NCBI GenBank assembly: GCA_025463745.1
Contig: JAODBB010000005.1
Coordinates: 1 to 64,000, forward strand
DNA from: Subtercola sp.
GTDB lineage: Bacteria > Actinomycetota > Actinomycetes > Actinomycetales > Microbacteriaceae
Length of the DNA: 64,000 bases
Reading direction: 5' to 3'
In this document: positions 19,107-37,298 of the stretch, piece by piece
Layout: the number at the start of each line of letters is the position of its first letter
Position numbering within the stretch: position 1 is the first letter of the stretch
Notes under the pieces: generated by a model
Database searches by the model: none
Told to the model about the DNA's origin: nothing
The model's input: only the letters and a program-made list of their open reading frames with translations
Program-made: the position numbers and the translations under genes

Positions 19107-20035
19107 ACGTGCTCACCCACCCAGCTCGGAGCGGTGTTCGTAGGAAAGTAGCGCTGCCGAATGGCTTCGGATGCCTCGCTGGTGGCCTCTTGCACCAAAT
19201 CCATCTGGTGCGGCAGGTCGTGCAGTATGTCCATGATCGGTCGGTACTCCAGTTGGCTGCGAATCTGGCCGAGCAGGCGCTGTGCCTGATCGGTGACTGC
19301 GAGCCGGGTGTTGCGCGGTTCGATGTCGCGCAGGCTCCGCTCGGCGCGGGTCACCGAGAACAGAATCGAGCGGGGAAAGAGCCGGTCGAGCAGCAAGAAC
19401 TCGGCGGCATTGCGGGCTGACGGCACGCCGCGGTAGGTGCGCAGGTACGACTCGTAAGCTCCGCACGAGCGCAGAATCGTGGTCCACGAGGGTCCGCTGG
19501 CTTCGGTGAGGCTGCGGGTGGCGAGCAGCCTGGCGGTCATGTCGGCGCGCTCGAGCGAGCGCCCGAGGGTGAAGAAGTGCCACGCTTCGTCACGGGATGC
19601 CGCGGACTCCTGAATCCCGACGGCGAGCGCCGAGCGCTCGCGCACCCAGGCGAAGAACTCGTGCGTCTTCTCGGTGGCGACCTTGCGCGGCATGCGCGCC
19701 CGGGTGGTGTTGAGACACTCCCACAGCTCGGTCGACACAATCTCGCGGGCCCGCCGTGCGTTCTCGCGAGCGGCGCCCAAAGAGTAAGCGATGGATGCCG
19801 GTTGCGTGCGGTCGACGGCCAAAATCGCCAGAACGTCGGCACGGGTTAATTCGTGATCATCCGGTGGTATCTCGCTGCCCATGACAGCCAGAAGTGAACG
19901 GCAGGCGAGGTTCTCTTCGATCCACGGGTCTTCGAGCAGCAGCTGCAGATGCACGTCGAGGATGCGCGCGGTGCCGTCGCTGCGTTCGATGTAGCGCCCG
20001 ATCCAGAACAGCGACTCGGCGATGCGGCTCAGCAT
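19103..20035 (-). CDS. Alpha-E domain protein
   Basis: A 310-residue all-helical protein of the Alpha-E (DUF403) family. It begins with the typical MLSRIAESLFWIGRYIERSDGTARILDVHLQ and keeps ARENARRAREIVSTELWE and HDLPHQMDLVQEATSE. The family has no proven activity and is nearly always encoded next to the permuted ATP-grasp and transglutaminase genes, as here. It overlaps the ATP-grasp gene by 7 nt upstream and the transglutaminase gene by 4 nt downstream, so the three proteins are probably made in balance. Confidence 0.93.
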   Translation of the reverse strand: MLSRIAESLFWIGRYIERSDGTARILDVHLQLLLEDPWIEENLACRSLLAVMGSEIPPDDHELTRADVLAILAVDRTQPASIAYSLGAARENARRAREIVSTELWECLNTTRARMPRKVATEKTHEFFAWVRERSALAVGIQESAASRDEAWHFFTLGRSLERADMTARLLATRSLTEASGPSWTTILRSCGAYESYLRTYRGVPSARNAAEFLLLDRLFPRSILFSVTRAERSLRDIEPRNTRLAVTDQAQRLLGQIRSQLEYRPIMDILHDLPHQMDLVQEATSEASEAIRQRYFPTNTAPSWVGEHV

Positions 20036-21819
20036 GGGGCCGCCTCGCCTTCGGTGGCGACGAGAGAAGCGTTTTCAGACGAGAGCGGCCGCTGCAACGG
20101 CTTCTCTCGTCTGGAAGGGCCGTTCTCGCCGAGCAACCTCTCGCCGAGAAAGAGAGCGGCGCGCTGCTGTTGCTGCTGCTCTTGCTGGTCTTGGTGCGAG
20201 CGCGGCTTGTCGTAGGGCGAATGGTCGGGGGCGTGTTTACCCGAGCCAGTCGGAACGGCCTGCGTGTTCGCCGCCTGATCGGCCACGAGCCCCTGAATGT
20301 TCTGCGCGGCGACCGCGGTGCCGTCGACCGGCGAGAACCCGCCCGCGAACCCCACCACCCAGGTGTCTTTCGACCCGCCGCCTTGCGACGAGTTCACCAC
20401 GAGCTCACCCTCGGGCAGCGCCACACGGGTCAGGCCGCCGGGCAGCACCCACACGTCTTTGCCGTCGTTCACCGCGAATGGTCGCAGGTCGGCGTGCCTC
20501 GGGCGCATGCCGTCTTCGACCAGGGTCGGGATGGTCGACAGCTGTATCACCGGCTGCGCGATCCATCCTCGAGGGTCTTTGATGAGCTGCTTGCGCAGCG
20601 CTTCGAGCTCTTTCGGCGATGCGGCCGGCCCCACAACGAGGCCCTTACCGCCCGAACCATCGACCGGCTTGACCACGAGCTCGTCGAGCCTGTCGAGCAC
20701 CTCTTCGAGCGCCCCCGGGTCTTCGAGGCGCCAGGTGTCGACGTTCGCGATCAGCGGCTCCTCCGACAGGTAATACCTGATCAGATCGGGCAAGTACGTG
20801 TAGACGAGCTTGTCGTCGGCCACGCCGTTTCCGACGGCATTCGCAATGGTGACGTTGCCGAGCCGCGCGGCGAGCAGGATGCCCGGCGAACCCAGCATCG
20901 AATCGGCCCTGAATTGCAGCGGGTCGAGAAACTCGTCATCGACGCGGCGGTAGATCACGTCGACGCGCGTCGGCCCCGCCGTCGTGCGCATCCACACCCG
21001 CCCGCCCGAGCAGAACAGATCGCGGCCCTCGACGAGCTCGATGCCCATCAGGCGCGCGAGCAGGGTGTGCTCGAAGTAGGCCGAGTTGTACACCCCTGGG
21101 GTCAGCACCACCACGTTGGGGTCTTCGACGCCCTCGGGCGCGGCCGCCCGCAGCGCCTGCAGCAACTTGTTCGGGTAGTCGCCAACGGGCCGAACCCGCA
21201 TCGAGACGAACAGCTCGGGCAGCGTCTGCGCCATGACACGGCGGTTCGAGATGACGTAACTCACGCCCGACGGCACACGCACGTTGTCTTCGAGAACCCG
21301 CCAGCCGCCCTTCTCGTCACGAATCAGGTCGATGCCCGAGACCTGGATGCGCACGCCGTTCGCCGACACGATTCCGGCGGCCTCCCGGTGAAAATGACTG
21401 GATGAACTGACGAGCCCAGCGGGAATGACACCGTCTCGCACGGCGTTCTGCGAGCCGTAGATGTCGGCGAGAAACGCCTCGAGTGCCAGAACGCGCTGCT
21501 TGATGCCCTTCTCGACGCCCACCCACTCCCTCTGCTCGATGACGCGGGGAACCGCGTCGAGCGGAAAGGGGCGCTCCTCGCCGGCGAAGTCGAACGTCAC
21601 GCCCTGAGCGAGATACGAACTGGCCAGAGCATCCGTTCGCCCGCGCAGTTCTTCTTGGGTCATGCGGGCAAGGGCTGTGTAAATGTCTTTGTACGCGGCG
21701 CGCGCCTCGACGGGCGATGAGGAGTCTGGCTCGGGGAACATCTCGTCATAGGCGCTCGCCCCCTTGATGGGTTTTCGGGGCAAAAGGGTGGCGCCATATC
21801 CGGCGAACAGGTCAACCAT
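20029..21819 (-). CDS. Circularly permuted type 2 ATP-grasp protein
   Basis: A 596-residue protein of the DUF404/DUF407 (CP_ATPgrasp_2) group, predicted to be a peptide or amide ligase that uses ATP. Recognisable blocks are GVTFDFAGEERPFPLDAVPRV, RVLEDNVRVPSGVSYV, LTPGVYNSAYFEH, VVKPVDGSGGKGLVVGP and WVLPGGLTRVALPEG. The last about 95 residues form a non-conserved tail rich in Gln, Asp, Ser and His, including DQQEQQQQQQ, whose DNA also holds a hairpin. ATG 21819 has TATGCT (21831-21826) 6 nt upstream, suggesting a leaderless mRNA; longer in-frame starts lack support. It is the first gene of the three-gene operon. Confidence 0.92.
   Translation of the reverse strand: MVDLFAGYGATLLPRKPIKGASAYDEMFPEPDSSSPVEARAAYKDIYTALARMTQEELRGRTDALASSYLAQGVTFDFAGEERPFPLDAVPRVIEQREWVGVEKGIKQRVLALEAFLADIYGSQNAVRDGVIPAGLVSSSSHFHREAAGIVSANGVRIQVSGIDLIRDEKGGWRVLEDNVRVPSGVSYVISNRRVMAQTLPELFVSMRVRPVGDYPNKLLQALRAAAPEGVEDPNVVVLTPGVYNSAYFEHTLLARLMGIELVEGRDLFCSGGRVWMRTTAGPTRVDVIYRRVDDEFLDPLQFRADSMLGSPGILLAARLGNVTIANAVGNGVADDKLVYTYLPDLIRYYLSEEPLIANVDTWRLEDPGALEEVLDRLDELVVKPVDGSGGKGLVVGPAASPKELEALRKQLIKDPRGWIAQPVIQLSTIPTLVEDGMRPRHADLRPFAVNDGKDVWVLPGGLTRVALPEGELVVNSSQGGGSKDTWVVGFAGGFSPVDGTAVAAQNIQGLVADQAANTQAVPTGSGKHAPDHSPYDKPRSHQDQQEQQQQQRAALFLGERLLGENGPSRREKPLQRPLSSENASLVATEGEAAPC
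20059..20113. other. Nested hairpins in the coding tail of the ATP-grasp gene
   Basis: Two alternative stems share the GACGAGAG word: a 12-bp stem (GACGAGAGAAGC at 20059-20070 with 20100-20111) and a 10-bp stem (CAGACGAGAG at 20077-20086 with 20104-20113). They lie just before the overlap with the alpha-E gene and could modulate coupling between the two genes. Confidence 0.4.
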
Positions 21820-22025: not shown

Positions 22026-22688
22026 TTGACTGAGTACACGCCAGTCCGGCGGCCGATTGCCGACCAGATGTACGAGGTTCTTCTCGGTCAGTTCATGAAT
22101 GGTTCGCGCGCGCCTAGCGAGACGCTCAATATCGGAGCTCTGTCTCGGGAATTGAACGTCAGTCAGACGCCGCTTCGGGAGGCACTGGCACGGCTCGAAC
22201 ACACTGGTCTCGTCAGGAGGGAAGCGCTTCGGGGGTACCGCGTCGCACCGATCATGAGTCGTGCGGAGATCGCGCAGCTGATGGATGCGCGCCTGTTGCT
22301 CGAGCCGAAACTTGCTGGAGAAGCAGCGAAGCGAGTGTCGCAGGAGTTCCTGAACGAGATCAACCAAACCGTCTCCGACTTTGCCGCCGCCGAGGCAAGA
22401 GCAGACAATGAAAGCGAAACTTTCGGCGTCTATTGGAATGCCGACCACCAATTCCACATGCTCATTGCCGCTCAGGCGGGAAACCCATTTCTGGAGACTG
22501 CATACCAGGCGTTGGGTGGCCAAATCCAGCGATTTCGCCTCTTCTCCAAGATGGGTCACACCGGACTGTCAGCAGCCGTTCCGGAGCACCAGGCGATCCT
22601 CGACGCGTTGAAAGCTCGAGACGCTGACGCCGCCGGCGACGCGATGCGTGCACACATCGAAGGCGCAATTGAGCGCAGCCTGAGGTGA
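22026..22688 (+). CDS. GntR-family transcriptional regulator, FCD subfamily
   Basis: A 220-residue DNA-binding repressor or activator. The N-terminal winged helix (IADQMYEVLLGQFMNGS, then LNIGALSRELNVSQTPLREAL and LVRREALRGYRVAPI) is typical GntR, and the C-terminal all-helical FCD domain (EIAQLMDARLLLEP, then FHMLIAAQAGNPFL and EHQAILDALKARDADAA) binds a carboxylate or sugar acid, often through a metal. The start is TTG 22026 behind the AGGAGGAG ribosome site; GTG 22023 is an alternative. It precedes the tetronate-type operon and probably controls it through the palindrome at 22730-22752. Confidence 0.9.
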   Translation: MTEYTPVRRPIADQMYEVLLGQFMNGSRAPSETLNIGALSRELNVSQTPLREALARLEHTGLVRREALRGYRVAPIMSRAEIAQLMDARLLLEPKLAGEAAKRVSQEFLNEINQTVSDFAAAEARADNESETFGVYWNADHQFHMLIAAQAGNPFLETAYQALGGQIQRFRLFSKMGHTGLSAAVPEHQAILDALKARDADAAGDAMRAHIEGAIERSLR

Positions 22689-22724
22689 CCGGCATGGTCG
22701 GCTCAGCGCTTGCGACTCGTTCGC

Positions 22725-22753
22725 TTGCGCTATACTATTGTCAATAGTATAGT
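22725..22753 (+). promoter_or_regulatory. Regulated promoter of the acid-sugar operon with 23-bp palindrome
   Basis: TTGCGC (22725-22730) and TATAGT (22748-22753) are 17 nt apart. A perfect palindrome with 11-bp arms (CTATACTATTG and CAATAGTATAG, one central base) occupies 22730-22752, exactly the spacer and the edge of the -10 box. A protein bound there would block RNA polymerase. The A+T-rich symmetric sequence resembles operators of GntR/FCD regulators, and such a gene is next door. Confidence 0.7.
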
Positions 22754-22843
22754 TCTCAATGGGCAACGAAGTCATCGAACGCCGTGCCTATCGCAAACCC
22801 GGATACGCCAAGCGCAGTAGCTACGAGGGAGTAGGAATTGATC

Positions 22844-23614
22844 ATGTATACAGCGATTCCGCTCGTTCATGGTTTCCCGGGAAAGTCACACTCACATGGT
22901 GCGTTCGGATGGAGCAGTATATGGCTTCTTCGAAACGACGAACGACGTGTTCTCATCGACGCGGGGCCGCCAGCCTATATCTCCCTGATTCATAAGGGTC
23001 TCGCCGGGGTGGGCCTCACGACGGCCGACATCACCGATGTTGTGATCACTCATCTTCATTGGGACCACGTCGGCAATTTCACCATGTACCCGAACGCGAC
23101 GACGTGGGTCGGTGAGAACGAGCTCGCATGGGCAGCAACGCTGCCAGCAGGAACCGCGTTCATTCCTGATCTGCACATTCAGGAGCTCGTGAGGCGGGGC
23201 GATCACATCGGCCGAATGCATCCAGGGTCTGAAGTTCTCCCCGGCGTCAACGTCATCGCCAGCCCCGGACATACTCCCGGGCACCTGGCGTTCAGCGCGG
23301 AAACGACGACGGGAACGTACATTTTCGCAGGCGACGCCGTCAAGAACGTTTACGAACTGAACACGCTCGAGGTTGATTCCACCATGGATGAGGCTGCCAG
23401 CCGCCGCAGCATCCAACGGTTGAAATCCGTTCTCCGAGACACCAATGGGCTCCTCATCCCTGGCCATGACGTTCCGCTTCATGCGAACGGTACTGAGTTC
23501 ACTCGGATCCAAGCTCAACGAGCACATATCGGTTTCTTCGCCGACGATAACGGCGAGGTCGACCGCAGCATCGCACACGCTGAGTTCAACTGCGACGAAT
23601 CGGAGGAAGCATGA
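22844..23614 (+). CDS. MBL-fold metallo-hydrolase, candidate lactonase
   Basis: A 256-residue metallo-beta-lactamase-fold hydrolase. The metal site is TH70-L-H72-W-D74-H75, with further ligands probably in SPGHTPGH, AGDAVKN and IPGHDVPL. The ATG at 22844 has AGGA 7 nt upstream. Quorum-quenching lactonases and related MBL enzymes share this pattern. It is first in an operon whose next gene encodes an aldose/uronate dehydrogenase-like SDR, the kind of enzyme that yields a lactone, so opening of that lactone is a reasonable role. This is inference from context. It overlaps the next gene by 4 nt. Confidence 0.85.
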   Translation: MYTAIPLVHGFPGKSHSHGAFGWSSIWLLRNDERRVLIDAGPPAYISLIHKGLAGVGLTTADITDVVITHLHWDHVGNFTMYPNATTWVGENELAWAATLPAGTAFIPDLHIQELVRRGDHIGRMHPGSEVLPGVNVIASPGHTPGHLAFSAETTTGTYIFAGDAVKNVYELNTLEVDSTMDEAASRRSIQRLKSVLRDTNGLLIPGHDVPLHANGTEFTRIQAQRAHIGFFADDNGEVDRSIAHAEFNCDESEEA

Positions 23615-24390
23615 AGGTTCTGTACACCGGGTCGGCGGGTCGAATGGCGGCTGTCATTCGCGAAGGGCTCAGCAGCAGATATGAACGAGTCGTGCTCTAC
23701 CAACGCACTGCGGCGTCAGACAAGCTATACGAAAACGAGGAAGTGGTCGTCGGCGACTTGGCAGACCTCGATACCCTCACCGCTGCGGCCGCTGGAATCG
23801 ATGCGATCGTGCATCTCGGTGGTAAAGCCGACGAATCCGACTTCGCTGAGATACTCGACTCGAACATTATCGGTACGTACAACGTGTACGAGGCCGCGCG
23901 ACGAGCCGGCGTGCGGCGAGTCGTATTCGCGAGCTCCAACCATGTCGTCGGCTTCTACCCGGCCGGTCAGCCGATCGACGAAGACGCCCCGCCGCGACCC
24001 GACACTCACTATGGTGCGTCGAAAGTGTACGGGGAAGCCCTCGGACGGCTCTATCACGACAAGTGGGGGTTGGAAGTCGTCTCCGTGCGCATCGGAATTT
24101 TCCGCGAGCGTCCGACCGATCGCCGCCAGCTGGCTTTGTGGCTGAGCCCCCGAGACAGCATTCAGCTCTTTGCGCGGTCGATCGAGGCGGACGGCATCGG
24201 ATACGTCGTCTCCTACGGGTCGTCGGCGAACCGAGACGCCTGGTGGGACAGTACTCGCTCATGGCGCCTACTCGGTTACCAGCCGCAAGACGATGCGGCA
24301 GATTACAGCTCCGAGGTGCCCGACGCCCCGGATCCCCAGCACTATGGCGGAGTATTCACCGCCGATGACTACAAAGGAGGAGTCTGGTGA
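23611..24390 (+). CDS. NAD-dependent SDR, uronate dehydrogenase-like
   Basis: A 259-residue extended-type SDR. The nucleotide loop is YTGSAGRMA, the catalytic Tyr-Lys is YGASKVYGEALGRLY, and FASSNHVVGFYPAG is very like uronate dehydrogenases. Enzymes of this group oxidise C1 of a sugar or uronate to the aldonolactone with NAD. D-erythronate dehydrogenase (DenD), used in tetronate pathways, is another member of the wider family, so oxidation of a tetronate is an alternative. Operon position between a lactonase-like MBL gene and a hydroxyacid dehydrogenase supports a sugar-acid substrate. It overlaps both neighbours by 4 nt. Confidence 0.85.
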   Translation: MKVLYTGSAGRMAAVIREGLSSRYERVVLYQRTAASDKLYENEEVVVGDLADLDTLTAAAAGIDAIVHLGGKADESDFAEILDSNIIGTYNVYEAARRAGVRRVVFASSNHVVGFYPAGQPIDEDAPPRPDTHYGASKVYGEALGRLYHDKWGLEVVSVRIGIFRERPTDRRQLALWLSPRDSIQLFARSIEADGIGYVVSYGSSANRDAWWDSTRSWRLLGYQPQDDAADYSSEVPDAPDPQHYGGVFTADDYKGGVW

Positions 24391-25382
24391 CCGATTCGCG
24401 TACCCCCAGCGTGCTCATCACAACGACATTTTTGAAGGCCGGCGGAGAGGTCGACACCCGCTTGAGGCGCGCCGGTGCGCGGGTGGCGTTCATTCCGAAA
24501 CCCTCCGACGAACCCGACTCGTTTGCCGAGGCCCTCAGCGAAGCGGATGCCATCATTGCAGGCACTCAACCGCTCACCGCTGAATTGATCGACACCGCTG
24601 CGAATCTGAAAGTCATCGCACGCACCGGCGTCGGCTATGACAGTGTTGACGTCGAGGCGGCTTCGCGGCGCGGAATTGCGGTGTGCATCACCCCTGGCGC
24701 CAACCGCCAGGCGGTCGCCGAGCATGTTTTCGCGTTGATGCTGGCTGCGGCCCGTGACGTGCCGGCCAACATGGCTGAGGTGACCGCAGGACGCTGGAGT
24801 CAACGGTCCGGTCGGGAACTCTTCGGTTCTACTCTCGGGATCGTCGGCCTCGGATCCATCGGCAAGACTGTCGCGCTCCTTGCACAGGCGTTCGGGATGC
24901 GAGTCATCGCCTACGACCCGTACTTCGACGCAGAGTTCGGACACGCGAACAACGTTCTGCGAGTCAATCTGAACGACCTGCTGGCCGAATCGGACTTCAT
25001 CACCCTGCACCTGTTTCTGGACTCGACCACCAAGAACCTCATCGACGCCGACGCGCTGTCGCGCACCAAACCGAACGCCGTGATCATCAACACTGCCCGC
25101 GGCGGACTCATCGATGAAGATGCACTGGCCTACGCGATCCAGTCGGGTCGCCTTGGCGGAGCCGGACTCGACGTCTATGAAACCGAACCTCTGCCGACCA
25201 ACTCGCCGCTGATCGGTCTTCCCGGAGCCATCACCACCGGACATGTCGCCGGAGCGACCCACGAAGCTCGCAGCCGTTCCGGTCTGATTGCAGCCGATAT
25301 TGTCTTGGCAGCGCTCAACGGGCAAGAGATCCCTCACAGTGTGAACCGTGACCAACTCGCCGCTCAGGTGGCGCTCCGATGA
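24387..25382 (+). CDS. D-2-hydroxyacid dehydrogenase
   Basis: A 331-residue NAD-dependent dehydrogenase of the SerA/D-isomer-specific 2-hydroxyacid family. The NAD motif is LGIVGLGSIGKTVALLAQ; catalytic Arg is in INTARGGLIDEDALAYAI, Glu in GLDVYETEPLP and His in TTGHVAGATHE. The start is GTG 24387, overlapping the SDR gene by 4 nt. Given the OtnI and OtnK genes downstream, the likely job is oxidation of a tetronate at C2 to 2-oxo-tetronate, but the family has many substrates and this is inferred. Confidence 0.88.
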   Translation: MTDSRTPSVLITTTFLKAGGEVDTRLRRAGARVAFIPKPSDEPDSFAEALSEADAIIAGTQPLTAELIDTAANLKVIARTGVGYDSVDVEAASRRGIAVCITPGANRQAVAEHVFALMLAAARDVPANMAEVTAGRWSQRSGRELFGSTLGIVGLGSIGKTVALLAQAFGMRVIAYDPYFDAEFGHANNVLRVNLNDLLAESDFITLHLFLDSTTKNLIDADALSRTKPNAVIINTARGGLIDEDALAYAIQSGRLGGAGLDVYETEPLPTNSPLIGLPGAITTGHVAGATHEARSRSGLIAADIVLAALNGQEIPHSVNRDQLAAQVALR

Positions 25383-26206
25383 TCGTCGAAACCAGCGCCG
25401 GGCGGCTACGGCTGGCGGCGAACCTGAAGTGGTTGTTCACCGAGCTGCCGTTCTTGGAACGATTCGATGCCGCCGCGGACGCCGGATTCACAGGGGTCGA
25501 ATACGCCTCGCCATATGAGTTCGATTCTGCTGAGCTCAAGCGTCGGCTCACCGATGCCGGACTGACGCAAGTACTGATCAACACTCCGGCCGGCCCGACG
25601 GGTTCACCGACCCAGAATGGTGCAGCAGCTGTCGCCGGGGCCGAAGACGAATTCCGTGATGGGGTACAACGCGCGCTCGAGTATGCAACTGCTCTCGACG
25701 CCAGGTTGGTTCACATCATGGCGGGAGTTCGCCCATCGGGTGTCTCAGCGAGCGACACGGTTTCCCTGTACACAGAGAACATCGCCTGGGCCGCGGAGCA
25801 AGCCGAGGCGACCGGACTGGGCCTCGTGCTCGAAGCGATCAACAAACGCGACGTTCCGGGCTTCGCCGTCGAGTCTTTCGAGGCGGCCGCCGACGTTGCA
25901 CGCACCGTCAACCCGAACGTGGTCGGAGTGCTCTTCGACGTTTATCACGCACAGGTCGACCGGGGAAATCTCATCGAACGATTCAACGACCTTCACCCGT
26001 TCATCTCACACGTCCAAGTCGCTGATAACCCCGGACGAGGCGAACCTGGCACTGGCGAAATCGCCTACCCGAATGTGCTCTCCAGCATCGTTCGCGCAGG
26101 CTACACCGGCTGGATCGGCTGCGAATACCGGCCGGCCACCAACACGATCGACGGACTGACGTGGATCGAGTCCATCGGCGGCAGCGTAGGAGCGAAGACA
26201 GCATGA
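25379..26206 (+). CDS. otnI: Hydroxypyruvate isomerase family protein, candidate 2-oxo-tetronate isomerase (OtnI)
   Basis: A 275-residue TIM-barrel isomerase. The opening LAANLKWLFTELPFLERFDAAADAGFTGVEY, the LVLEAINKRDVPGF strand with its metal Glu, and GVLFDVYHAQVDRGN plus HVQVADNPGRGEPGTGEI are the hallmarks of the Hyi/OtnI family. OtnI converts 2-oxo-tetronate to 3-oxo-tetronate. Hydroxypyruvate isomerase is the alternative, but the presence of OtnK and OtnC homologues just downstream favours OtnI. It overlaps both flanking genes by 4 nt. Confidence 0.87.
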   Translation: MIVETSAGRLRLAANLKWLFTELPFLERFDAAADAGFTGVEYASPYEFDSAELKRRLTDAGLTQVLINTPAGPTGSPTQNGAAAVAGAEDEFRDGVQRALEYATALDARLVHIMAGVRPSGVSASDTVSLYTENIAWAAEQAEATGLGLVLEAINKRDVPGFAVESFEAAADVARTVNPNVVGVLFDVYHAQVDRGNLIERFNDLHPFISHVQVADNPGRGEPGTGEIAYPNVLSSIVRAGYTGWIGCEYRPATNTIDGLTWIESIGGSVGAKTA

Positions 26207-26862
26207 CCAACGAACCTCTCATCGCGCTTATCAGCGCCACGCCAACGGCGATCCCGGCAGCGACGGCAGCCATCCTCGAGCGGATCCCCACCGCGCGGGT
26301 GTGGAACATCGTCGACGATCGCCTGCTCTCCGATGCGCAAATGGCAGGCACAGTGACGCCGCAGCTCGAGGAGCGGATGCAGCGTTTGATCGCGCACGCC
26401 CTTCTTGAGAAGCCAGACTCGGTACTGCTCACCTGCTCCCAGTACGGCGCTGTCGCACGACGGACCACTGCAACAATCCCGGTGCTCCCTCCCGACGACG
26501 CCGCATTCGAGCAGGTCATCGCCGGCGGCTACCGCACCGTTCTCGTACTCGCGTCACTAGAAAGCGCTCGCGACGACACCGTGCGGCGGCTGACGGAAAC
26601 CCTGGCCGCTGCGGGTGTTTCAGCTGATATCGAAAGCCGAGTCGTTGCCAACGCCGCTGAGTATGCCGCTCTCGGCAACACGACAGCCCTCCTCGACGTG
26701 CTGGCCTCCGCCGCTGCAGGCGATCACGACGCCGTGCTCCTCGCCCAATACTCCCTCTCGACGGTTGCCGGCGAACTGGCATCGGCCACTGGAAAGCGCG
26801 TGATCAGCGGGCCGACAGCGGCGGCCGAAAGCATCGACGCCACTCTGAGGCGGGCGCCATGA
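26203..26862 (+). CDS. Aspartate/glutamate racemase superfamily protein with a single Cys
   Basis: A 219-residue protein of the Asp/Glu/hydantoin racemase superfamily. The first half keeps the Cys motif (SVLLTCSQYGAVA), but the second half has VLLAQYSLSTV where racemases carry the second catalytic Cys. No other Cys is present in the protein, so a two-base racemase mechanism is unlikely. Arylmalonate decarboxylase shows that single-Cys members can have other activities. Its place between OtnI and OtnK homologues suggests a role with the same four-carbon acids. The ATG overlaps the OtnI stop by 4 nt. Confidence 0.8.
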   Translation: MTNEPLIALISATPTAIPAATAAILERIPTARVWNIVDDRLLSDAQMAGTVTPQLEERMQRLIAHALLEKPDSVLLTCSQYGAVARRTTATIPVLPPDDAAFEQVIAGGYRTVLVLASLESARDDTVRRLTETLAAAGVSADIESRVVANAAEYAALGNTTALLDVLASAAAGDHDAVLLAQYSLSTVAGELASATGKRVISGPTAAAESIDATLRRAP

Positions 26863-28100
26863 TCGGCATCATCGCCGACGACGTCACCGGCGGAACGGAC
26901 GCCGCCAGCGCCTGCCGTGACGGCGGACTTCGCACGGCGCTATCGTTCGGTGTACCCGACATCGACTCACAGGTTCGGGATGTAGATGCGCACGTCATCG
27001 CATTGAAGACTCGTTCGGTGCCTGCGCGAGACGCAGTCGCCCAGACGCTGAATGCCGCCCACGCCCTTCGACGAGAAGGTGCGGAATCGTTCTACTTCAA
27101 ATACTGCTCCACGTTCGACTCCACCGCAGACGGAAACATCGGCCCTGTGCTCGACGCACTCGCTGCGATGCTGGATGCGGAAACGGTGGTGACCACGCCT
27201 GCAGCGCCGGGTCACGGGCGCACTGTCTATCGTGGTTACCTGTTCGTCGGTGACCGACTGCTCTCCGAATCGCACATGCGCGACCATCCGCTGACACCGA
27301 TGCGCGACTCCTTTGTGCCACGACTGCTCGCAGCGCAAACACGGCACCCGATCGCTTCGCTCGACTACGGGGCAGTGCGCAGCGGGGAGATCGCTCTCCG
27401 CCGGCTGCTCACCGGCTCCAACGTCGCAGGCACTACGTATTTCGTCGCCGACGCCATCGACGACGCCGACCTGGCGACAATCGCAAGCGTCATCAGAAAT
27501 GAGAAGCTGACGGCGGGCTCGGCCGGGCTGATCGGCGCAATAGCCCGTGATCTGGCGACCGACAGCGGGGGCGCAGCCGTGCGGCGGCTACCGACGAGAT
27601 CGGCGGTAGTCGCCGGTAGTTGCTCAGCAGCGACACTTGCCCAGATCGATGCCTTCAAAGGAGCGGGCCTGCCGTGGTACGAGCTGGACATCCTCGCCAC
27701 GCCTGACCCGGCCGTTCTCGCAGACTCCGCCCTGGCCTGGTTCGATCGCCTGATCCCCAACGAACCGGCGTTGATCTACTCGTCGCGCCCGGCGGAGGAA
27801 CTCAGCATCGTGCAGCGAGTGCTCGGTGTTGCACGTTCGGCAGAAATCACCGAACGTGCAACCGCCGATATCGCGGTCGGGCTAGCGGAGCGCGGAGTGA
27901 AACGGATCATCTCCGCCGGCGGAGAGACCTCCGGTGCTGTGGTCGACGCCCTCCACTTGCGTACTGGCATCATCGGGCGCGAAGCCGCCGCAGGTGTGCC
28001 CTGGATCCACGTCGACGACGACATCGCAATCCTGCTCAAGTCGGGCAACTTCGGAGACAGAGACCTGCTGGTGCGTGCAGTCACACAGGAGACCACATGA
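26859..28100 (+). CDS. otnK: Four-carbon acid sugar kinase (OtnK/DUF1537 family)
   Basis: A 413-residue kinase of the family once called DUF1537. The N-terminal substrate domain has IIADDVTGGTDAASA and the typical FYFKYCSTFDSTADGNIGPV; the C-terminal nucleotide domain includes VVAGSCSAATLAQI, IISAGGETSGAVVDAL and GVPWIHVDDDIAILLKSGNFG. OtnK phosphorylates 3-oxo-tetronate at O4. Related family members act on other acid sugars such as 3-oxo-isoapionate, but the adjacent OtnI and OtnC homologues point to the tetronate pathway. It overlaps both neighbours by 4 nt. Confidence 0.92.
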   Translation: MIGIIADDVTGGTDAASACRDGGLRTALSFGVPDIDSQVRDVDAHVIALKTRSVPARDAVAQTLNAAHALRREGAESFYFKYCSTFDSTADGNIGPVLDALAAMLDAETVVTTPAAPGHGRTVYRGYLFVGDRLLSESHMRDHPLTPMRDSFVPRLLAAQTRHPIASLDYGAVRSGEIALRRLLTGSNVAGTTYFVADAIDDADLATIASVIRNEKLTAGSAGLIGAIARDLATDSGGAAVRRLPTRSAVVAGSCSAATLAQIDAFKGAGLPWYELDILATPDPAVLADSALAWFDRLIPNEPALIYSSRPAEELSIVQRVLGVARSAEITERATADIAVGLAERGVKRIISAGGETSGAVVDALHLRTGIIGREAAAGVPWIHVDDDIAILLKSGNFGDRDLLVRAVTQETT

Positions 28101-28702
28101 CCCACCCTCGAGACCAAATCGTTGAGACGGCCCGTTCGATCTACAGCCGCGGACTGACGCACGGAAGCACCGGCAACCTGTCCGTGCGTTCAGGCGACCG
28201 GATATTCATCACCCCGACCGGGTCGAGTCTAGGCACTGTGCAACCTGACGAGATCGCAGAAATTGACCCTGACGGCACCGCGATCACGCAGTGCAAACCG
28301 TCAAAGGAAGCATTCATTCATGCGGCGATCCTCCGCATCCGCCCCGAACTCGGCGCCGTCGTTCACACCCACTCCACCTACGCAACCGCGGTCTCCTGCC
28401 TTCCCGGACTGCACCCCGATTCCACCCTCCCGCCGCTCACGGTCTACTTCGAAATGCGCGTCGGAAGCCTTCCGCTGGTGCCCCGTTTCCGTCCGGGAGA
28501 CACCACTATGACCGCCACAATCGAGAAACTCGCGGCGACCAACGCGGCGATGCTGCTGCAAAATCACGGCCCCGTCGCTGCGGGAACGACACTGCAATCA
28601 GCCCTAGACACGATCGAAGAGATCGAACACACCGCACACATCTTTCTCTTGACTCAAGCCCACAGCGGGCGCACAACAGCCACGATCAAGGACAACCGAT
28701 GA
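28097..28702 (+). CDS. otnC: 3-oxo-tetronate 4-phosphate decarboxylase-like class II aldolase (OtnC)
   Basis: A 201-residue class II aldolase/adducin-fold enzyme. The phosphate-binding segment THGSTGNLSVR, KPSKEAFIHAAI, the metal-binding AVVHTHSTYATAV and the later MLLQNHGPVAAG match the OtnC group, which decarboxylates 3-oxo-tetronate 4-phosphate to dihydroxyacetone phosphate and CO2. L-fuculose-phosphate aldolase-type activity is the alternative for the fold, but context supports OtnC. It overlaps the kinase gene and the next gene by 4 nt each. Confidence 0.9.
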   Translation: MTHPRDQIVETARSIYSRGLTHGSTGNLSVRSGDRIFITPTGSSLGTVQPDEIAEIDPDGTAITQCKPSKEAFIHAAILRIRPELGAVVHTHSTYATAVSCLPGLHPDSTLPPLTVYFEMRVGSLPLVPRFRPGDTTMTATIEKLAATNAAMLLQNHGPVAAGTTLQSALDTIEEIEHTAHIFLLTQAHSGRTTATIKDNR

Positions 28703-29406
28703 ACAAAAACCCAACGACACGGCTCCGCCTTCTCAGCGGCCTTGCCACCCAACAGGCGCTGATCAGTGACATTCTGCCCGCCTTCACAGCGAACACGGGC
28801 ATTCAGGTCGACACCGTTTTCGAGCCCACATCCGTTCTGCTCAACGTGATCAATGACGGTGAGCCTTTCGACGTCCTTCTTGGCGTCACGGGGACAGTCC
28901 AGCAGCTCGCCGACAGTGGACATATCCGCCCGGACAGTGTCAGCGCGGTCGCCCGATCCGGTATAGGGGTCGCGGTAACCGACGCATCAACCGATAGCTC
29001 GTTCACGACCGCAGACGAATTCATCACCACGCTTCGTGGCGCCCGCTCGGTTGCGTACTCACGATCGGGCGCAAGCGGCATCTACTTCGCTGGCCTACTG
29101 GACCGGCTCGGGATCCGAGCTGAAATCGACGCGAAAGCGACGGTACTAGACAAAGGCTTCACCGCGACAGCGCTCTTCGACGGTCGGGCAGACATCGCCA
29201 TCCAGCAGGTGAGCGAATTGCTATCCGTGCCCGGCGCGGTCATTCTCGGAACGCTTCCGCCCACTGTCCAGTTCTACACAGACTTCGCTGCCGGTGTCAG
29301 CGTTGCCAGTCTTGCACCGGCGGAGGCTGTGTTGCTCGCCGGGGCTCTGATCACCGAAGACGCGCAATCCGCGTATGTCGCTACTGGACTGATCCGACCT
29401 GATTGA
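28699..29406 (+). CDS. ModA-like substrate-binding domain protein without signal peptide
   Basis: A 235-residue protein with the fold pattern of molybdate-type (ModA) binding proteins: LRLLSGLATQQALISDILPAF, then PFDVLLGVTGTVQQLADSG and VLDKGFTATALFDGRADIAIQQVSEL. Unlike true ModA proteins it starts directly at the first strand, with no signal peptide or lipobox, so it should stay in the cytoplasm. No ABC permease or ATPase is adjacent. ATG 28699 overlaps the OtnC stop by 4 nt, which also rules out a longer exported form. It may sense or hold a pathway metabolite; its function is unknown. Confidence 0.82.
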   Translation: MNKNPTTRLRLLSGLATQQALISDILPAFTANTGIQVDTVFEPTSVLLNVINDGEPFDVLLGVTGTVQQLADSGHIRPDSVSAVARSGIGVAVTDASTDSSFTTADEFITTLRGARSVAYSRSGASGIYFAGLLDRLGIRAEIDAKATVLDKGFTATALFDGRADIAIQQVSELLSVPGAVILGTLPPTVQFYTDFAAGVSVASLAPAEAVLLAGALITEDAQSAYVATGLIRPD

Positions 29407-29485
29407 CGTGCACTGTACCTCGAGTGGTGCAGCCGCAGAGAGCACCGTACACAACCATAACGACCACCAAAAAAAGGAGAACGGC

Positions 29486-30490
29486 GTGACCCACGACCCG
29501 ATCAACCAACGATTCTTCAACGTCGTCGCCGCGGCCCGCGTCGGCGACGCGATGGGGACACCGACCGAAGGGCTGACCCCCGAGCAAATCGATACCAAGT
29601 TCGGTTGGGTGACCGAATTCGAAGGCGACGGCACCGATGACAGCCTGATGGCTACGATTCTCGCGGAGTCGCTTCACGCGACCGGCGGATTCGCAACCTC
29701 TGACGAATGGGCAGCGCAGATCCTTCAGCATCAGCCTGAAATTCGCGCCAAGCGGAATATGTTTTTCGTCTCGGTTCTGCATCTCGTGACGAAGCTCGAA
29801 CTCGGGTATCGCCCCGCTGATGTCGCGGTTGGGAACATGGCGTCGACGAGCTCGGCGATGTGTATTTGGCCTGTGGCGCTGGTGAATGCAGGCCAGCCCG
29901 AGAATGCCGCCGCGCAAGCGTATGAACTCGCCGGCTTGATCCATGTGAATGAAGTCGACCACTGCACCGACGCTGCGGCAGCGCTGGCCGCGGCGATCGC
30001 GGCAGCGCTGCTGCCAGGTGCATCTATCGGGTCTGCTATCGAAGCGGCTGTGAAGGTCATTCGGCATACCAGCGGAACAGCGTTTCGAGACGTCCTCCTG
30101 GAAGCTGTGCAACTCGCATCCGAGGCCAAAGACTACGCTGAGTTCCGGTCCGAATACCACCACCGCTTCCAACGGCCGCTCTTCTGCGACTCACTGGAGA
30201 CGGTTCCTGCAGCGTTTGCGCTCGCCGTTCTCGCCAACGGCGACGTACGCACCGCGGTGGAATACGGAGCTAACTTCGGTCGGGACGCAGACACCATCGC
30301 AAGCATGACGGGTGCGCTCTGCGGGGCCTTGAGCTCCGACATTCCCGAAGCGTGGATCGAAGGTCTCGGCGAGGGCGCCGTCGCCTCTGCACAACAACTC
30401 GCCGGCGACCTGGTCGTCACGGCCCGCTCCCGCTACGCCACCGAAGCCGAGCGGCTCCGCACGGCAGACACCCTCCTCGGCGGAATCTGA
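29486..30490 (+). CDS. ADP-ribosylglycohydrolase family protein
   Basis: A 334-residue protein of the DraG/ARH fold. The metal-binding motifs are ARVGDAMGTPTEG, EGDGTDDSLMATILAESL and, near the C-terminus, ANFGRDADTIASMTGAL. These enzymes remove ADP-ribose from proteins or split related N-glycosides; some family members occur in sugar and nucleoside operons where their substrate is not known. GTG 29486 has AAGGAG 8 nt upstream. It lies 79 nt behind the ModA-like gene and is followed by a strong hairpin, so it is probably the last gene at full operon expression. Confidence 0.86.
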   Translation: MTHDPINQRFFNVVAAARVGDAMGTPTEGLTPEQIDTKFGWVTEFEGDGTDDSLMATILAESLHATGGFATSDEWAAQILQHQPEIRAKRNMFFVSVLHLVTKLELGYRPADVAVGNMASTSSAMCIWPVALVNAGQPENAAAQAYELAGLIHVNEVDHCTDAAAALAAAIAAALLPGASIGSAIEAAVKVIRHTSGTAFRDVLLEAVQLASEAKDYAEFRSEYHHRFQRPLFCDSLETVPAAFALAVLANGDVRTAVEYGANFGRDADTIASMTGALCGALSSDIPEAWIEGLGEGAVASAQQLAGDLVVTARSRYATEAERLRTADTLLGGI

Positions 30491-30497
30491 TCGTGTG

Positions 30498-30533
30498 TCT
30501 CGGGCGGCGCTGAATACAGAGTGCCGCCCGAGA
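30498..30533 (+). terminator. Hairpin behind the ADP-ribosylglycohydrolase-family gene
   Basis: A perfect 11-bp stem (TCTCGGGCGGC at 30498-30508 and its complement at 30523-30533) with a 14-nt loop begins 8 nt after the stop codon. No U-tract follows. It may terminate or attenuate transcription before the transporter gene. Confidence 0.6.
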
Positions 30534-30609
30534 GCGCCGACGGTCAGCCGCTCACGTGGCCTGTCCACGAAAAAGAATGAATAGCCATCTACGAATAAGG
30601 AAGACAACG

Positions 30610-31983
30610 ATGTCAATATCTTCAGCAGGAAACGTGCGAATGGCGAGGAGAGCCGCGTTCGGTAGCTTCCTGGGCACCGCATTCGAATATCTCGACTTTA
30701 CGATGTACGCAATCGTCTCTGCAGTGATTTTCAGTAAGGTGTTCTTCCCGGCCACCGATCCGGCGTTGGCGAGCATCGGATCAGTTGCGACATTCGGCGT
30801 CGCCTATATCGCGCGACCGATCGGCGCCTTCGTGCTCGGTCCGCTCGGTGACCGGATCGGCAGACAGAAAGTGACGCTGCTGACGATGATCGGGATCGGC
30901 ACTGCAACGTTCCTGATCGGGTGCCTTCCCGGGTATCAGACAATCGGGTTTGCGGCGCCGATTCTGTTGGTGATCCTCCGCCTGGGCCAAGGCTTCTTCG
31001 TCTCAGGTGAACAGGCGGGCACAAGCACACTGACAATGGAACATGCACCCAGCAAACGTCGAGCATTCTTCGTCAGCTGGGTGAATGTCGGCACGGGTGT
31101 GGGTACTGCGTTGGGGCAACTTCTCTTCATTCCCATTCTTGCCCTGCCCACTGATCAACTCCTCTCGTGGGGTTGGCGGGTTCCGTTTCTTCTCAGCGCC
31201 GTGTGGACTCTGATTGTCATTCTGGTGCGCCGAACGCTTCGGGATTCTGAGGCCTTCATTGAAGCCAAGAAGGACGGACAGCTTGAGAAGTTTCCGCTGC
31301 GGAGGCTCTTTGTCGAGTATTGGCCCAACCTCATCCGGGTGGTGCTGTGCTGCCTGATGGCTGCGCCAGGCTCCATCGTGGCCGTATTCGTCCTCTTCTA
31401 CGCAACGAATACAGCGCATATCTCGCCGAGCGCCTATTTGGGTGTCTCACTCGCTACGGGGCTGTTAAGCACGTTCTCCATCCCATTCTGGGCAATTCTG
31501 GCCGACAAGATCGGGCGTCGGCCAGTCTTTGCAGGTGGCCTCATCATCGGCGCAGGGATGATGTTTCCGCTATTCCTCGCCGTGAACACGGGAAACCTGC
31601 TTCTTGTCGGCGTTGTTGCGCTCCTCGGGAACATTTTCATCATGGCGGGCCAAGCACTCCAACTCCCGATGTACACCGAGATGTTCCCGACATCCATCCG
31701 CTATTCGGGTGTCGCGGTGGGCACACAGCTGGGATATCTGCTCGCGGGTTTTGCACCGACCATCAGCTTCGCAATCGCAGGGACGGGACTTAATGGATGG
31801 ATTCCGGTCGCGATCTTCGCCGCATTGTGCCTGGTGATCGCGGCTATCAGTTCACTGACCAGCCGAGAAACGCGAGGCATCATGATCGATGAGATCGATG
31901 ACGGCCCGTCGGAAGCGAGAAGACCGGCAGCGCAGGCGACTCGATTGAACTCGGAAACAAGCGCAACCGTACCTGAAGCTTGA
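30610..31983 (+). CDS. MFS transporter, metabolite:H+ symporter (MHS)-like
   Basis: A 457-residue, 12-helix proton symporter. The start FGSFLGTAFEYLDFTMYAI and IARPIGAFVLGPLGDRIGR follow the MHS (shikimate, alpha-ketoglutarate, proline/betaine) group; the second half has GADK-type AILADKIGRRPVFAGG and MYTEMFPTSIRYSGVAVG. ATG 30610 has AAGGA 9 nt upstream; a longer in-frame start at 30556 lacks one. It is the natural uptake system for the sugar acid or lactone used by the operon. Codons in this gene look somewhat more A/T-rich than in neighbouring housekeeping genes. Confidence 0.9.
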   Translation: MSISSAGNVRMARRAAFGSFLGTAFEYLDFTMYAIVSAVIFSKVFFPATDPALASIGSVATFGVAYIARPIGAFVLGPLGDRIGRQKVTLLTMIGIGTATFLIGCLPGYQTIGFAAPILLVILRLGQGFFVSGEQAGTSTLTMEHAPSKRRAFFVSWVNVGTGVGTALGQLLFIPILALPTDQLLSWGWRVPFLLSAVWTLIVILVRRTLRDSEAFIEAKKDGQLEKFPLRRLFVEYWPNLIRVVLCCLMAAPGSIVAVFVLFYATNTAHISPSAYLGVSLATGLLSTFSIPFWAILADKIGRRPVFAGGLIIGAGMMFPLFLAVNTGNLLLVGVVALLGNIFIMAGQALQLPMYTEMFPTSIRYSGVAVGTQLGYLLAGFAPTISFAIAGTGLNGWIPVAIFAALCLVIAAISSLTSRETRGIMIDEIDDGPSEARRPAAQATRLNSETSATVPEA

Positions 31984-32074: not shown

Positions 32075-33091
32075 CTACTGCTGCGCGACGGTCGAATCGC
32101 GAATGACAAGCTCAGGCTCGAACACGACCTGCTGCGGCTGGTGGCCTTCGGGGTTTTCTGACTCGGCCAGCAGCAGGTCGACAGCCGTTCTGCCGAGCAT
32201 CCCGCTGGGCTGACGAATCGAGGTCAATGGCACCACGGTCGCCGAGGCGAACGCGATGTCGTCGTACCCGACCAAGGCGATGTCGTCGGGAACGCGCAGT
32301 CTGCCCAGCATGGTCAGCCCTTGCAGAAGGCCCGTCGCGAGCAGATCGTTCGCGGCGAAGATGGCATCGGGCCGGTCACGGGGGGCGCGGTTGACGATCA
32401 GCTCGCCGATTCGCCGCCCTTCGAGCACGGTGAGCGACTGCGTACCGAGAACTTCGAGAGTTGCCCCGTTCACAACACTGATCGCGTTGCCGGCGCCTTC
32501 GAGTCGATCAGAAACCTGCCGAATGCGGGTAGGCCCGCCCACGAAGGCGACGCGGCGGCGCCCGGTCGAGAGCAGATGCGAGACCGCGAGCGTGCCGCCC
32601 GCCACGTCGTCGACCGACACCGACGAGAACGATTCGTCAGAGATCGCCCGGTCGACCAGAACGGTCGGAATGTCGCGCGACCGCAGCCGCCTGACCTGGG
32701 GCGAAATGTCGGCGACCGGTGAGATGAGCATTCCGCGCACCCGCTGCTCTTCGAACAGGGCAAGATGGGCGGTTTCGCGAGCCACAGTGCCGTGGCTGTT
32801 GCCGAGAAGCAGCGCAAAACCGGCTTCGGATGCCCGGTCTTCAGCCCCCTCGGCAAGATCGGTGAAGAACGGGTTGCCGATATCGAGCACCACGAGGCCG
32901 ATGCTCCGGCTTCGCCCTGCTCGAAGCTGCCGCGCAGCATCGTTCCGCACAAATCCCAGCTTGTCGATCGCCTCCTGCACGCGGTACAGCGTGCTCGGCG
33001 ATACCCGATCGGGCCGGTTCAGCGCATTCGACACCGTTCCCAGAGAGACCCCGGCCAGTGCCGCCACATCACGTACACTCACTGCCGCCAT
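32075..33091 (-). CDS. LacI-family transcriptional regulator of the rhamnoside locus
   Basis: A 338-residue repressor. The helix-turn-helix and hinge (VSVRDVAALAGVSLGTVSNAL, NRPDRVSPSTLYRVQEAI) are followed by a periplasmic-binding-protein-like sugar domain (GLVVLDIGNPFFTDLAEG, then VDDVAGGTLAVSHLL, PDAIFAANDLLATGLL and VALVGYDDIAFA-like segments). ATG 33091 has GGGGAGA 5 nt upstream. It lies 70 nt behind the GH106-type gene and is probably co-transcribed with it. Likely targets are GAAACGTTTC-type sites in the promoter region at 40408-40615 and possibly at 56882-56891. Confidence 0.92.
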   Translation of the reverse strand: MAAVSVRDVAALAGVSLGTVSNALNRPDRVSPSTLYRVQEAIDKLGFVRNDAARQLRAGRSRSIGLVVLDIGNPFFTDLAEGAEDRASEAGFALLLGNSHGTVARETAHLALFEEQRVRGMLISPVADISPQVRRLRSRDIPTVLVDRAISDESFSSVSVDDVAGGTLAVSHLLSTGRRRVAFVGGPTRIRQVSDRLEGAGNAISVVNGATLEVLGTQSLTVLEGRRIGELIVNRAPRDRPDAIFAANDLLATGLLQGLTMLGRLRVPDDIALVGYDDIAFASATVVPLTSIRQPSGMLGRTAVDLLLAESENPEGHQPQQVVFEPELVIRDSTVAQQ

Positions 33092-33161
33092 CGCACTCTC
33101 CCCTCATCATCGTCGACCGTCTCCCGCCCGACCTCTCTGCGCCTCACTGCCGCCGCCCCGC

Positions 33162-37172: not shown

Positions 37173-37249
37173 GAGGGAACAATGCTTCTTTCAGTGTGAG
37201 GTGTAGGAAGTCGAGGTGTTGCGAAGAATGACGAAGTTGCGATGAATAA

Positions 37250-37287
37250 GGGAGGGCCCGGTTCGAGAGAGCGAACCAGACCCTCCC
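37250..37287 (-). terminator. Terminator behind the ABC substrate-binding protein gene
   Basis: 16-nt arms (37250-37265 and 37272-37287) pair with two mismatches around a 6-nt loop; the core is GGGAGGG / CCCTCCC plus GGTTCG / CGAACC. On the minus strand the stem starts 11 nt after the stop codon and is followed by TTATTCAT. It should separate importer transcription from the GH106-type gene. Confidence 0.75.
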
Positions 37288-37298
37288 CGAGTGGATGC

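Follow-up and report, generated by a model that had tools for sequence, protein, structure and literature searches.

Which compound feeds an operon whose last enzymes are of the kind that form dihydroxyacetone phosphate (DHAP) from four-carbon sugar acids? The question is raised by positions 22026-31983 of a 64,000-nucleotide stretch of Subtercola sp. (Microbacteriaceae; assembly GCA_025463745.1, contig JAODBB010000005.1, positions 1 to 64,000; hereafter the window), for which a first-pass annotation made from the sequence alone had proposed a free tetrose or its lactone as the entry substrate. Our comparative analysis points elsewhere. A nucleoside-like N-glycoside appears more likely than a free tetrose as the entry compound, and we tentatively read the locus as a GntR-controlled operon for the catabolism of an imported, probably acidic, nucleoside-like N-glycoside, with a pentofuranuronate as the favoured sugar.

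Layout of the operon

The ten-gene operon at 22026-31983 is real. Its gene order and coordinates were re-derived from the sequence, and open reading frames together with family matches bore out the order and positions given earlier. The genes named in the first-pass annotation stood, but its list did not cover the complete span, omitting a ModA-like gene (28699-29406) and a gene of the ADP-ribosylglycohydrolase (ADPRH) family (29486-30490). The 4-nt overlaps reported before were found as seven in a row, from the metallo-beta-lactamase-fold (MBL) gene through the gene 3′ of OtnC, a count that for two members, RAC and the ModA-like gene, assumes internal ATG starts and not the longest-frame starts. 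The ADPRH gene has a GTG start preceded by an aaaaaaggag-type ribosome site.

22026..22688, + strand: GntR/FCD regulator (TTG start; Pfam GntR and FCD)
22730..22752: operator candidate, inverted repeat CTATACTATTG-t-CAATAGTATAG, a perfect 11-nt repeat between regulator and operon
22844..23614, + strand: MBL-fold hydrolase, proposed aldono/aldaro-lactonase (Pfam Lactamase_B)
23611..24390, + strand: short-chain dehydrogenase/reductase (SDR), uronate-dehydrogenase-like, proposed to oxidise a free aldose or uronate at C1
24387..25382, + strand: D-2-hydroxyacid dehydrogenase (HADH), proposed C2 dehydrogenase of the acid (Pfam 2-Hacid_dh and 2-Hacid_dh_C)
25379..26206, + strand: OtnI/hydroxypyruvate-isomerase-like TIM barrel, proposed 2-oxo to 3-oxo isomerase
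26203..26862, + strand: Asp/Glu-racemase-fold protein (RAC), proposed epimerase or decarboxylase (Pfam Asp_Glu_race)
26859..28100, + strand: OtnK, 3-oxo-tetronate kinase (NCBIfam OxoTetrKin)
28097..28702, + strand: OtnC-like protein of the Aldolase_II type (NCBIfam OxoTetrPhDc as best match)
28699..29406, + strand: ModA-like SBP_bac_11 protein (SBP), ligand binding or catalysis (Pfam SBP_bac_11)
29486..30490, + strand: ADPRH family protein, proposed N-glycosidase (Pfam ADP_ribosyl_GH)
30610..31983, + strand: MHS-family metabolite:H+ symporter (NCBIfam 2A0106)

N-glycosidase genes accompany the SDR and MBL genes

To compare the operon with its relatives, we searched 199 genomes of the family for OtnK, obtaining 39 with a match (the operon's own genome included), and a genome-contig collection, obtaining 18 loci. 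Stretches around the 38 other family matches were fetched, five more were added from MBL or SDR profile matches, and plasmid loci came from searches with the binding protein, MBL and RAC (14 regions opened among 117, 597 and 37 matching records). Gene content was mapped by tblastn. The core consists of HADH-OtnI-RAC-OtnK-(OtnC)-SBP under a GntR regulator. We compared 20 core loci, 19 of them fetched and the remaining one the window itself, some of which lack a member of this set; 32 OtnK loci without the core served as controls.

The first-pass annotation had suggested a neighbourhood search for MBL, SDR and OtnI/K/C genes; ours revealed SDR and MBL as a joint addition in 11 loci (the window, L036 from Microbacterium sp. 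GCS4, L039, L042, L044, L048, L084, L085, L086, L087 and L088). All 11 also carry OtnI, RAC and the ModA-like gene, and among the fetched loci the pair was never seen without these three. Nine loci hold the core without SDR and MBL. A close SDR (at least 49% identity) occurs in 12 loci including the window, with MBL missing only from L059, where the SDR continues up to the end of a 5.2-kb contig. The core itself extends to Actinosynnema, Kibdelosporangium, Nonomuraea, Streptomyces and Streptantibioticus (loci L021, L023, L024, L025, L027, L077 and L040).

An N-glycosidase gene, either a nucleoside hydrolase or an ADPRH, was detected in 9 of the 11 loci with SDR and MBL, in none of the 9 core-only loci and in none of the 32 controls (9/11 versus 0/9, Fisher P 3e-4 with relatedness ignored). 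This association casts doubt on a free tetrose as the entry compound. The window encodes an ADPRH, well over the Pfam cut-off (ADP_ribosyl_GH, 135 versus 26.2 bits), and seven relatives encode nucleoside hydrolases. Six loci (L036, L042, L044, L048, L085 and L086) each contain one remodelled nucleoside hydrolase that keeps the DTD..DD metal motif and carries RRFRVSRDPN plus an insertion where RihC has AEFN; the Glu and Asn of AEFN are presumably the O5′ contacts Glu166 and Asn168 of the Crithidia enzyme numbering. A second type, for which the L036 and L044 enzymes were aligned, reads ASAN at this position, and L084 has one AEFN and one ASFN enzyme.

SDR and MBL resemble a uronate dehydrogenase and a lactonase

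The solved structures nearest to the SDR are a uronate dehydrogenase (Udh), 3RFT (profile E 1.8e-66), and the related 6MFH and 3AY3. The catalytic Ser/Tyr/Lys and the SNH motif of uronate dehydrogenase are present, the residues concerned being S109, N110, H111, Y134, K138 and R172. Asn110 and Arg172, which match Udh carboxylate-site residues, are kept in 12 of 13 SDR rows, the window's own counted; the exception is the SDR of L084, with His and Asp at these positions. No Udh model appears among the NCBIfam matches listed for the SDR, and an identity as D-erythronate dehydrogenase (DenD) was ruled out (33.5 versus 325 bits). A study of Udh enzymes indicates that the C6 carboxyl is apparently the main interaction point, that activity on glucose and galactose is low, and that the beta5 Asn is implied in carboxyl stabilisation (PMC4476818). 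In a modelled haloarchaeal relative, R193, H117 and H186 are named as contacts to the sugar phosphate (PMC8506132). The retained uronate-dehydrogenase-type residues thus make an anionic sugar the likelier SDR substrate than a neutral tetrose, L084 excepted.

MBL preserves HLHWDH (HxHxDH) and the His, Asp and His metal ligands in all 13 rows, the window's own among them. Its solved relatives include N-acyl-homoserine lactone lactonases and organophosphate hydrolases, and none of the curated lactonase equivalogs was matched over its cut-off, the best being AiiA (59.8 versus 375). In Rhizobium sp. Q54, an SDR homologue (40%) is clustered with a non-homologous SMP-30/gluconolactonase, and the cluster of Erwinia E602 holds a beta-propeller lactonase. 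The earlier proposal that SDR and MBL act as an aldose dehydrogenase and a lactonase upstream of OtnI, OtnK and OtnC thus gains support from linkage, both in the 11 loci and through the Q54 and Erwinia lactonases.

OtnK, OtnC and OtnI resemble a known pathway ending

Against the curated models, the three homologues assigned in the first-pass annotation fared unequally. OtnK passed its cut-off (OxoTetrKin, 436.9 versus 350), whereas OtnC, with OxoTetrPhDc as best match, fell short (232.2 versus 250), as did OtnI (284.8 versus 325), which is level with hydroxypyruvate isomerase (288.1 versus 353). Identities to the Escherichia coli proteins are 38% for YgbM (OtnI), 39% for YgbK (OtnK) and 45% for YgbL (OtnC). 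OtnK is the sole match in its own genome at E <= 0.001; it exceeded the cut-off in all four clusters scored (the window, Q54, L087 and L091) and 18 of the 19 fetched core loci encode it, the copy of L088 lying on another contig of the same genome (L065). With E. coli LtnD as the reference, none of the operon's proteins gave a match at E <= 1e-3.

Outside the Actinomycetota, clusters of Rhizobium sp. Q54, Agrobacterium vitis and Erwinia E602 (Pseudomonadota) combine an alpha-hydroxy-acid oxidase with SBP, RAC, OtnK and OtnC, and tblastn gave no OtnI match in these three. Agrobacterium sp. S7/73 (L091) has SBP, RAC, OtnK, OtnC and an OtnI match at 36%, and the Q54 cluster adds the Udh-like SDR, the SMP-30 lactonase and a tripartite ATP-independent periplasmic (TRAP) transporter. 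LtnD-type loci, in which LtnD stands beside OtnI, OtnK and OtnC (L072, L074 and E. coli L096), contain neither RAC nor SBP; further weak LtnD matches in L086 (23%) and L090 (31%) lie several kb away from the pathway genes.

LhgO and an Ldh-family dehydrogenase replace HADH in three relatives

HADH is encoded in 15 of the 19 fetched core loci. R238 and H286 are conserved in 16 of 16 rows and E267 in 17 of 17 (the window's own in both sets), position 265 being variable; we take R238, E267 and H286 to be the catalytic Arg, Glu and His. Three of the four HADH-less core loci (L022 from Rhodoglobus, L087 and L088), and none of the 15 with HADH, carry LhgO (L-2-hydroxyglutarate oxidase; 535 versus cut-off 299 in L087) together with an Ldh-family dehydrogenase. 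Pentarate (2,3,4-trihydroxyglutarate) is 2-hydroxyglutarate with two more hydroxyls, which would fit the replacement of HADH by LhgO. LarAH32, a racemase of 2-hydroxyglutarate, accepts ribarate, arabinarate and xylarate for epimerisation as well (PMC11770544).

Two additional proteins, RAC and the ModA-like protein

RAC scores slightly below the Pfam cut-off (Asp_Glu_race, 30.3 versus 31 bits), and its predicted model places it in the racemase superfamily, to which arylmalonate decarboxylase also belongs. Cys78 is invariant (30 of 30 rows). Position 182, which judging from motifs we take to be the second-Cys site of two-cysteine Asp/Glu racemases, is Gln or His in 29 rows and unaligned in one, so that RAC differs from those enzymes at the expected second Cys. 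Such a one-base enzyme would suit isomerisation, decarboxylation or epimerisation of a keto acid of the kind proposed below. RAC occurs in 23 of the 26 fetched loci having SBP; the three without it (L078, L090 and L094) are also without OtnK.

The model of the ModA-like protein (predicted local distance difference test score, 92.5) resembles ModA most closely; PEB3 and AcfC rank lower among its matches. Its N-terminus starts a few residues before the first strand, and aligned cluster members begin at or near the same point; by eye, no signal peptide is evident. No ATP-binding cassette (ABC) transporter genes are among those of the operon. The protein may bind or transform an acid intermediate. 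ModA-like homology alone was rejected as a pathway marker on account of L078, L090 and L094, whose relatives lie outside Otn clusters, the one in L094 with an apparent signal peptide. On a chlorophenol plasmid with maleylacetate reductase genes (L078:7968-8690), a relative without an evident signal peptide sits directly 3′ of an intradiol dioxygenase gene, so that the function of this family is not confined to acid-sugar clusters.

A shared operator motif and acid-type transporters

A GntR relative (53-80% identity) is encoded in 17 of the 19 fetched core loci, and the putative operator at 22730-22752 contains the motif CTATAsTATAG. Allowing at most one mismatch, we counted 17 sites in the 368,723 bases of the fetched core loci, spread over 13 of these 19, none in each of three Markov shuffles and one in the 618,659 bases of the 32 control loci. 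With at most two mismatches, the sites numbered 35 in core loci versus 3, 5 and 4 in the shuffles and 8 in the controls, and 17 of 20 core loci, the window counted, had one ahead of a pathway gene; the motif was chosen on the same loci, which makes these counts partly circular. At this threshold no site was found in L040, L084 or L089, and the latter two lack the GntR gene as well. CTATAsTATAG is likely the GntR operator. In the operon's own assembly (4.08 Mb in 253 contigs, 86% complete), the only matches with at most one mismatch are the two half-sites of 22730-22752 and C102:2187 on another contig.

The genes behind the motif encode MBL, HADH, OtnI, MHS, a TRAP-type permease (L024), and SDR with LhgO (L087 and L088). 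In L039 it lies between divergent mutarotase and ADPRH genes, and in L044 and L048 it precedes MHS, after which genes for a nucleoside hydrolase and a cytidine-deaminase-like protein come next in the same orientation; the other nucleoside hydrolase of these two loci, beside SBP, has no listed site. The window MHS scores below the 2A0106 cut-off (323.9 versus 443), the next match being a shikimate transporter. Transporters scanned across the loci are of the MHS, DctM and GntP types, mostly acid types, with one ABC exception.

A proposed route from an N-glycoside to DHAP

We propose that an acidic nucleoside-like N-glycoside would be imported and that an N-glycosidase, ADPRH in the window and a nucleoside hydrolase in relatives, would release a furanose sugar, preferably a pentofuranuronate such as D-riburonate. 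SDR would oxidise C1 to a lactone, MBL would open it to the acid (a pentarate if the sugar is a penturonate), HADH would oxidise C2, and the OtnI-like isomerase would move the keto group from C2 to C3 to give 3-oxo-pentarate. This beta-keto di-acid would shed one CO2 to yield 3-oxo-tetronate, with RAC or the ModA-like protein assisting decarboxylation or fixing stereochemistry; OtnK would then phosphorylate 3-oxo-tetronate, and OtnC would decarboxylate the product to DHAP. By chemical reasoning, 3-oxo-pentarate is beta-keto on both sides, such that loss of CO2 gives 2,4-dihydroxy-3-oxobutanoate, the OtnK substrate. Hexuronate versions were rejected by reasoning, as the product after decarboxylation would not be a 3-oxo-tetronate.

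Confidence differs among the parts. The general scheme of N-glycosidase, C1 oxidation, lactonase, 3-oxo-tetronate and DHAP seems to us fairly probable. Its penturonate version, favoured by the Udh-like SDR with its carboxylate-site residues, the mostly acid-type transporters and the replacement of HADH by LhgO and Ldh, is a possibility that we advance with some doubt. The fully specified route, hitherto undescribed, from pentofuranuronosides through pentarate and 3-oxo-pentarate, with decarboxylation by RAC and/or a cytoplasmic ModA-fold protein turned enzyme, to 3-oxo-tetronate, OtnK/OtnC and DHAP, is speculative and somewhat unlikely to hold in every step. D-riburonic acid is a known residue of some rhizobial exopolysaccharides (PMC8227245).

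Several observations weigh against this proposal. We found no natural pentofuranuronate N-glycoside as a growth substrate and no source of penturonate N-glycosides, for which capuramycin-type uridine-5′-carboxamides are a candidate. The window's own ADPRH is not a nucleoside hydrolase, no N-glycosidase match was obtained in L087 or L088 despite their SDR and MBL, and in L039 an ABC carbohydrate-type binding protein, not suggestive of an acid, adjoins the second ADPRH. For the SDR, the best NCBIfam match is Azf glucose-6-phosphate dehydrogenase, a haloarchaeal identity that we set aside as the score is far below cut-off (170 versus 400). The Asn/Arg contrast depends on L084 as the single exception; the Arg matching Udh Arg174 presumably has a carboxyl-binding role, PMC4476818 speaking only for the Asn and the importance of the C6 carboxyl; and Udh Ser165, presumably the second carboxyl-side residue, corresponds to Ile163 in the window and to Ser, Thr, Ile or Val in relatives. 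The substrate of LhgO-type oxidases could be a different 2-hydroxy acid, Rhodococcus koreensis L089 yielded no HADH, LhgO, Ldh or FMN-oxidase (flavin mononucleotide-dependent) match, OtnC is absent from L022, L024 and L039, and L040 has the regulator and lacks an operator match.

Alternative readings of the operon

The entry of a free tetrose or tetronolactone, as originally proposed, would let SDR and MBL produce D-erythronate or L-threonate and HADH replace DenD or LtnD ahead of OtnI, OtnK and OtnC. Every step fits a four-carbon chain, OtnK exceeds its curated cut-off, and HADH families act on 2R acids, which both D-erythronate and L-threonate are. This reading would nevertheless give nothing to do to the N-glycosidases, RAC and the ModA-like protein, and the plain LtnD loci indeed do without the last two; it would also leave unexplained the uronate-dehydrogenase residues of the SDR, the exchange of HADH for LhgO and Ldh in three relatives, and the tie of N-glycosidases to SDR and MBL, in some loci through the shared operator motif. 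We therefore regard it as unlikely. The linkage supports the chemistry proposed earlier, from sugar through lactone, acid and 2-oxo acid to DHAP; as its starting point, another compound fits better than a free tetrose or tetronolactone. Cleavage of an ordinary nucleoside, with D-ribose passing through ribonolactone, ribonate and 2-oxo- then 3-oxo-pentonate to a tetrulose phosphate by OtnK and OtnC, would account for the nucleoside hydrolases and the cytidine-deaminase-like gene of relatives, as well as for L084, where an AEFN nucleoside hydrolase accompanies an SDR without the Asn/Arg pair. Yet OtnK scores as a four-carbon enzyme and ordinary ribose is already served by ribokinase, and we consider this quite improbable.

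The core might alternatively be a tetronate or pentarate operon, sharing only its regulator with an SDR, MBL and N-glycosidase that handle a separate compound. The nine loci with the core alone speak for such a division, which is difficult to reconcile with the seven consecutive overlaps in the window, the constant company of OtnI, RAC and the ModA-like gene wherever SDR and MBL were fetched, and a motif spanning both parts; we judge it very unlikely. It is harder still to see the front half as serving C2-C3 acids, with OtnI as a hydroxypyruvate isomerase and HADH as a hydroxypyruvate/glyoxylate reductase. OtnI scores equally as hydroxypyruvate isomerase (288 versus 285 bits) and HADH resembles phosphoglycerate dehydrogenases and glyoxylate reductases, but neither enzyme would require the OtnK that nearly all fetched core loci encode (18 of 19), making this reading highly improbable. 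Catabolism of an N-glycoside, with a penturonate as the favoured sugar, remains our preferred interpretation.

Distribution and variant clusters

Of 398 genomes searched in the family, 10 gave an SDR match, the operon's own genome counted, and 0 of the 10 other same-genus genomes among those listed did so. This sporadic pattern suggests that the operon was probably acquired horizontally; a phage link was sought and gave one weak match. Phylum-wide, the binding-protein profile matched its own genome only (1/396), and order-wide the MBL profile matched its own genome and G851 only (2/396), counts that are weak evidence of rarity since few candidates were scored per genome.

Among related clusters, the closest relative (L039:11993-17549) has no OtnC in the cluster; it does contain two ADPRH genes, a gene resembling L-fucose mutarotase and one for an ABC-type binding protein. 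A variant cluster from another family of the order (L084:7456-15921), with a more divergent OtnK (42%), probably handles a different sugar. Seven loci (L041, L043, L045, L047, L082, L092 and L093) join OtnK/OtnC, RAC or MBL genes to an isocitrate/isopropylmalate-type dehydrogenase, perhaps another route to 3-oxo-tetronate; they have no ModA-like match, OtnI is absent or weak, and L092 is without OtnK. The plasmid MBL near-neighbours L081 and L092 were dropped as pathway clues, both being without OtnK.

Within the window, the operon is flanked on the − strand by an Alpha-E domain protein adjoining a circularly permuted ATP-grasp protein (19103-21813), a pair that frequently accompanies transglutaminase-like genes. 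What is probably a distinct cluster for glycan use lies on the other side (32075-38576, − strand), comprising a LacI regulator, a 1336-aa protein with a weak GH106 alpha-L-rhamnosidase match (28.3 versus 29 bits) and an ABC-type extracellular binding protein.

Significance and comparison with known systems

The ending of the pathway is known, and its front end and the two extra proteins, RAC and the ModA-like protein, look new. The first-pass annotation had not recognised the gene order as a described pathway, and our literature search likewise found no description, although subscription journals may hold one. If the proposal is true, DUF1537 kinase pathways would serve not only free four-carbon acids but also sugars that N-glycosides release. 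It would provide defined candidate substrates for Udh-like SDRs, for a racemase-fold family with one cysteine and for a cytoplasmic ModA-like family, each of which recurs in acid-sugar clusters, several of them actinobacterial and some proteobacterial. The regulon can be tested directly through the shared operator motif.

ModA, the molybdate-binding protein, shares fold and sequence family with the window protein, which differs in having no evident signal peptide (by eye) and no ABC partner in the operon, and in being conserved within acid-sugar clusters. With the bacterial oxidative uronate pathway the operon shares a Udh-type SDR beside a putative lactonase, catalytic and carboxylate-site residues kept; it has no aldarate dehydratase, and the acid would pass instead to HADH and OtnI/OtnK/OtnC.

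L-threonate routes of three and four steps, and a Brucella erythronate cluster, are described in PMC12540250 and PMC10580937, respectively. The three-step bypass (2-OtnK and 2-OtnC; PMC12540250) has an OtnK-type kinase and a decarboxylating OtnC leading to DHAP, as here, but proceeds without OtnI and with an F_bP_aldolase-type OtnC, whereas the window has OtnI and an Aldolase_II-type OtnC. The L-threonate/D-erythronate pathway (LtnD or DenD, OtnI, OtnK and OtnC) resembles the operon in its OtnI/OtnK/OtnC-type enzymes ending in DHAP. The operon departs from it by using HADH in place of LtnD or DenD, a position taken in relatives by Ldh with LhgO or by an FMN oxidase, by adding RAC and the ModA-like protein, and by setting SDR, MBL and an N-glycosidase in front.

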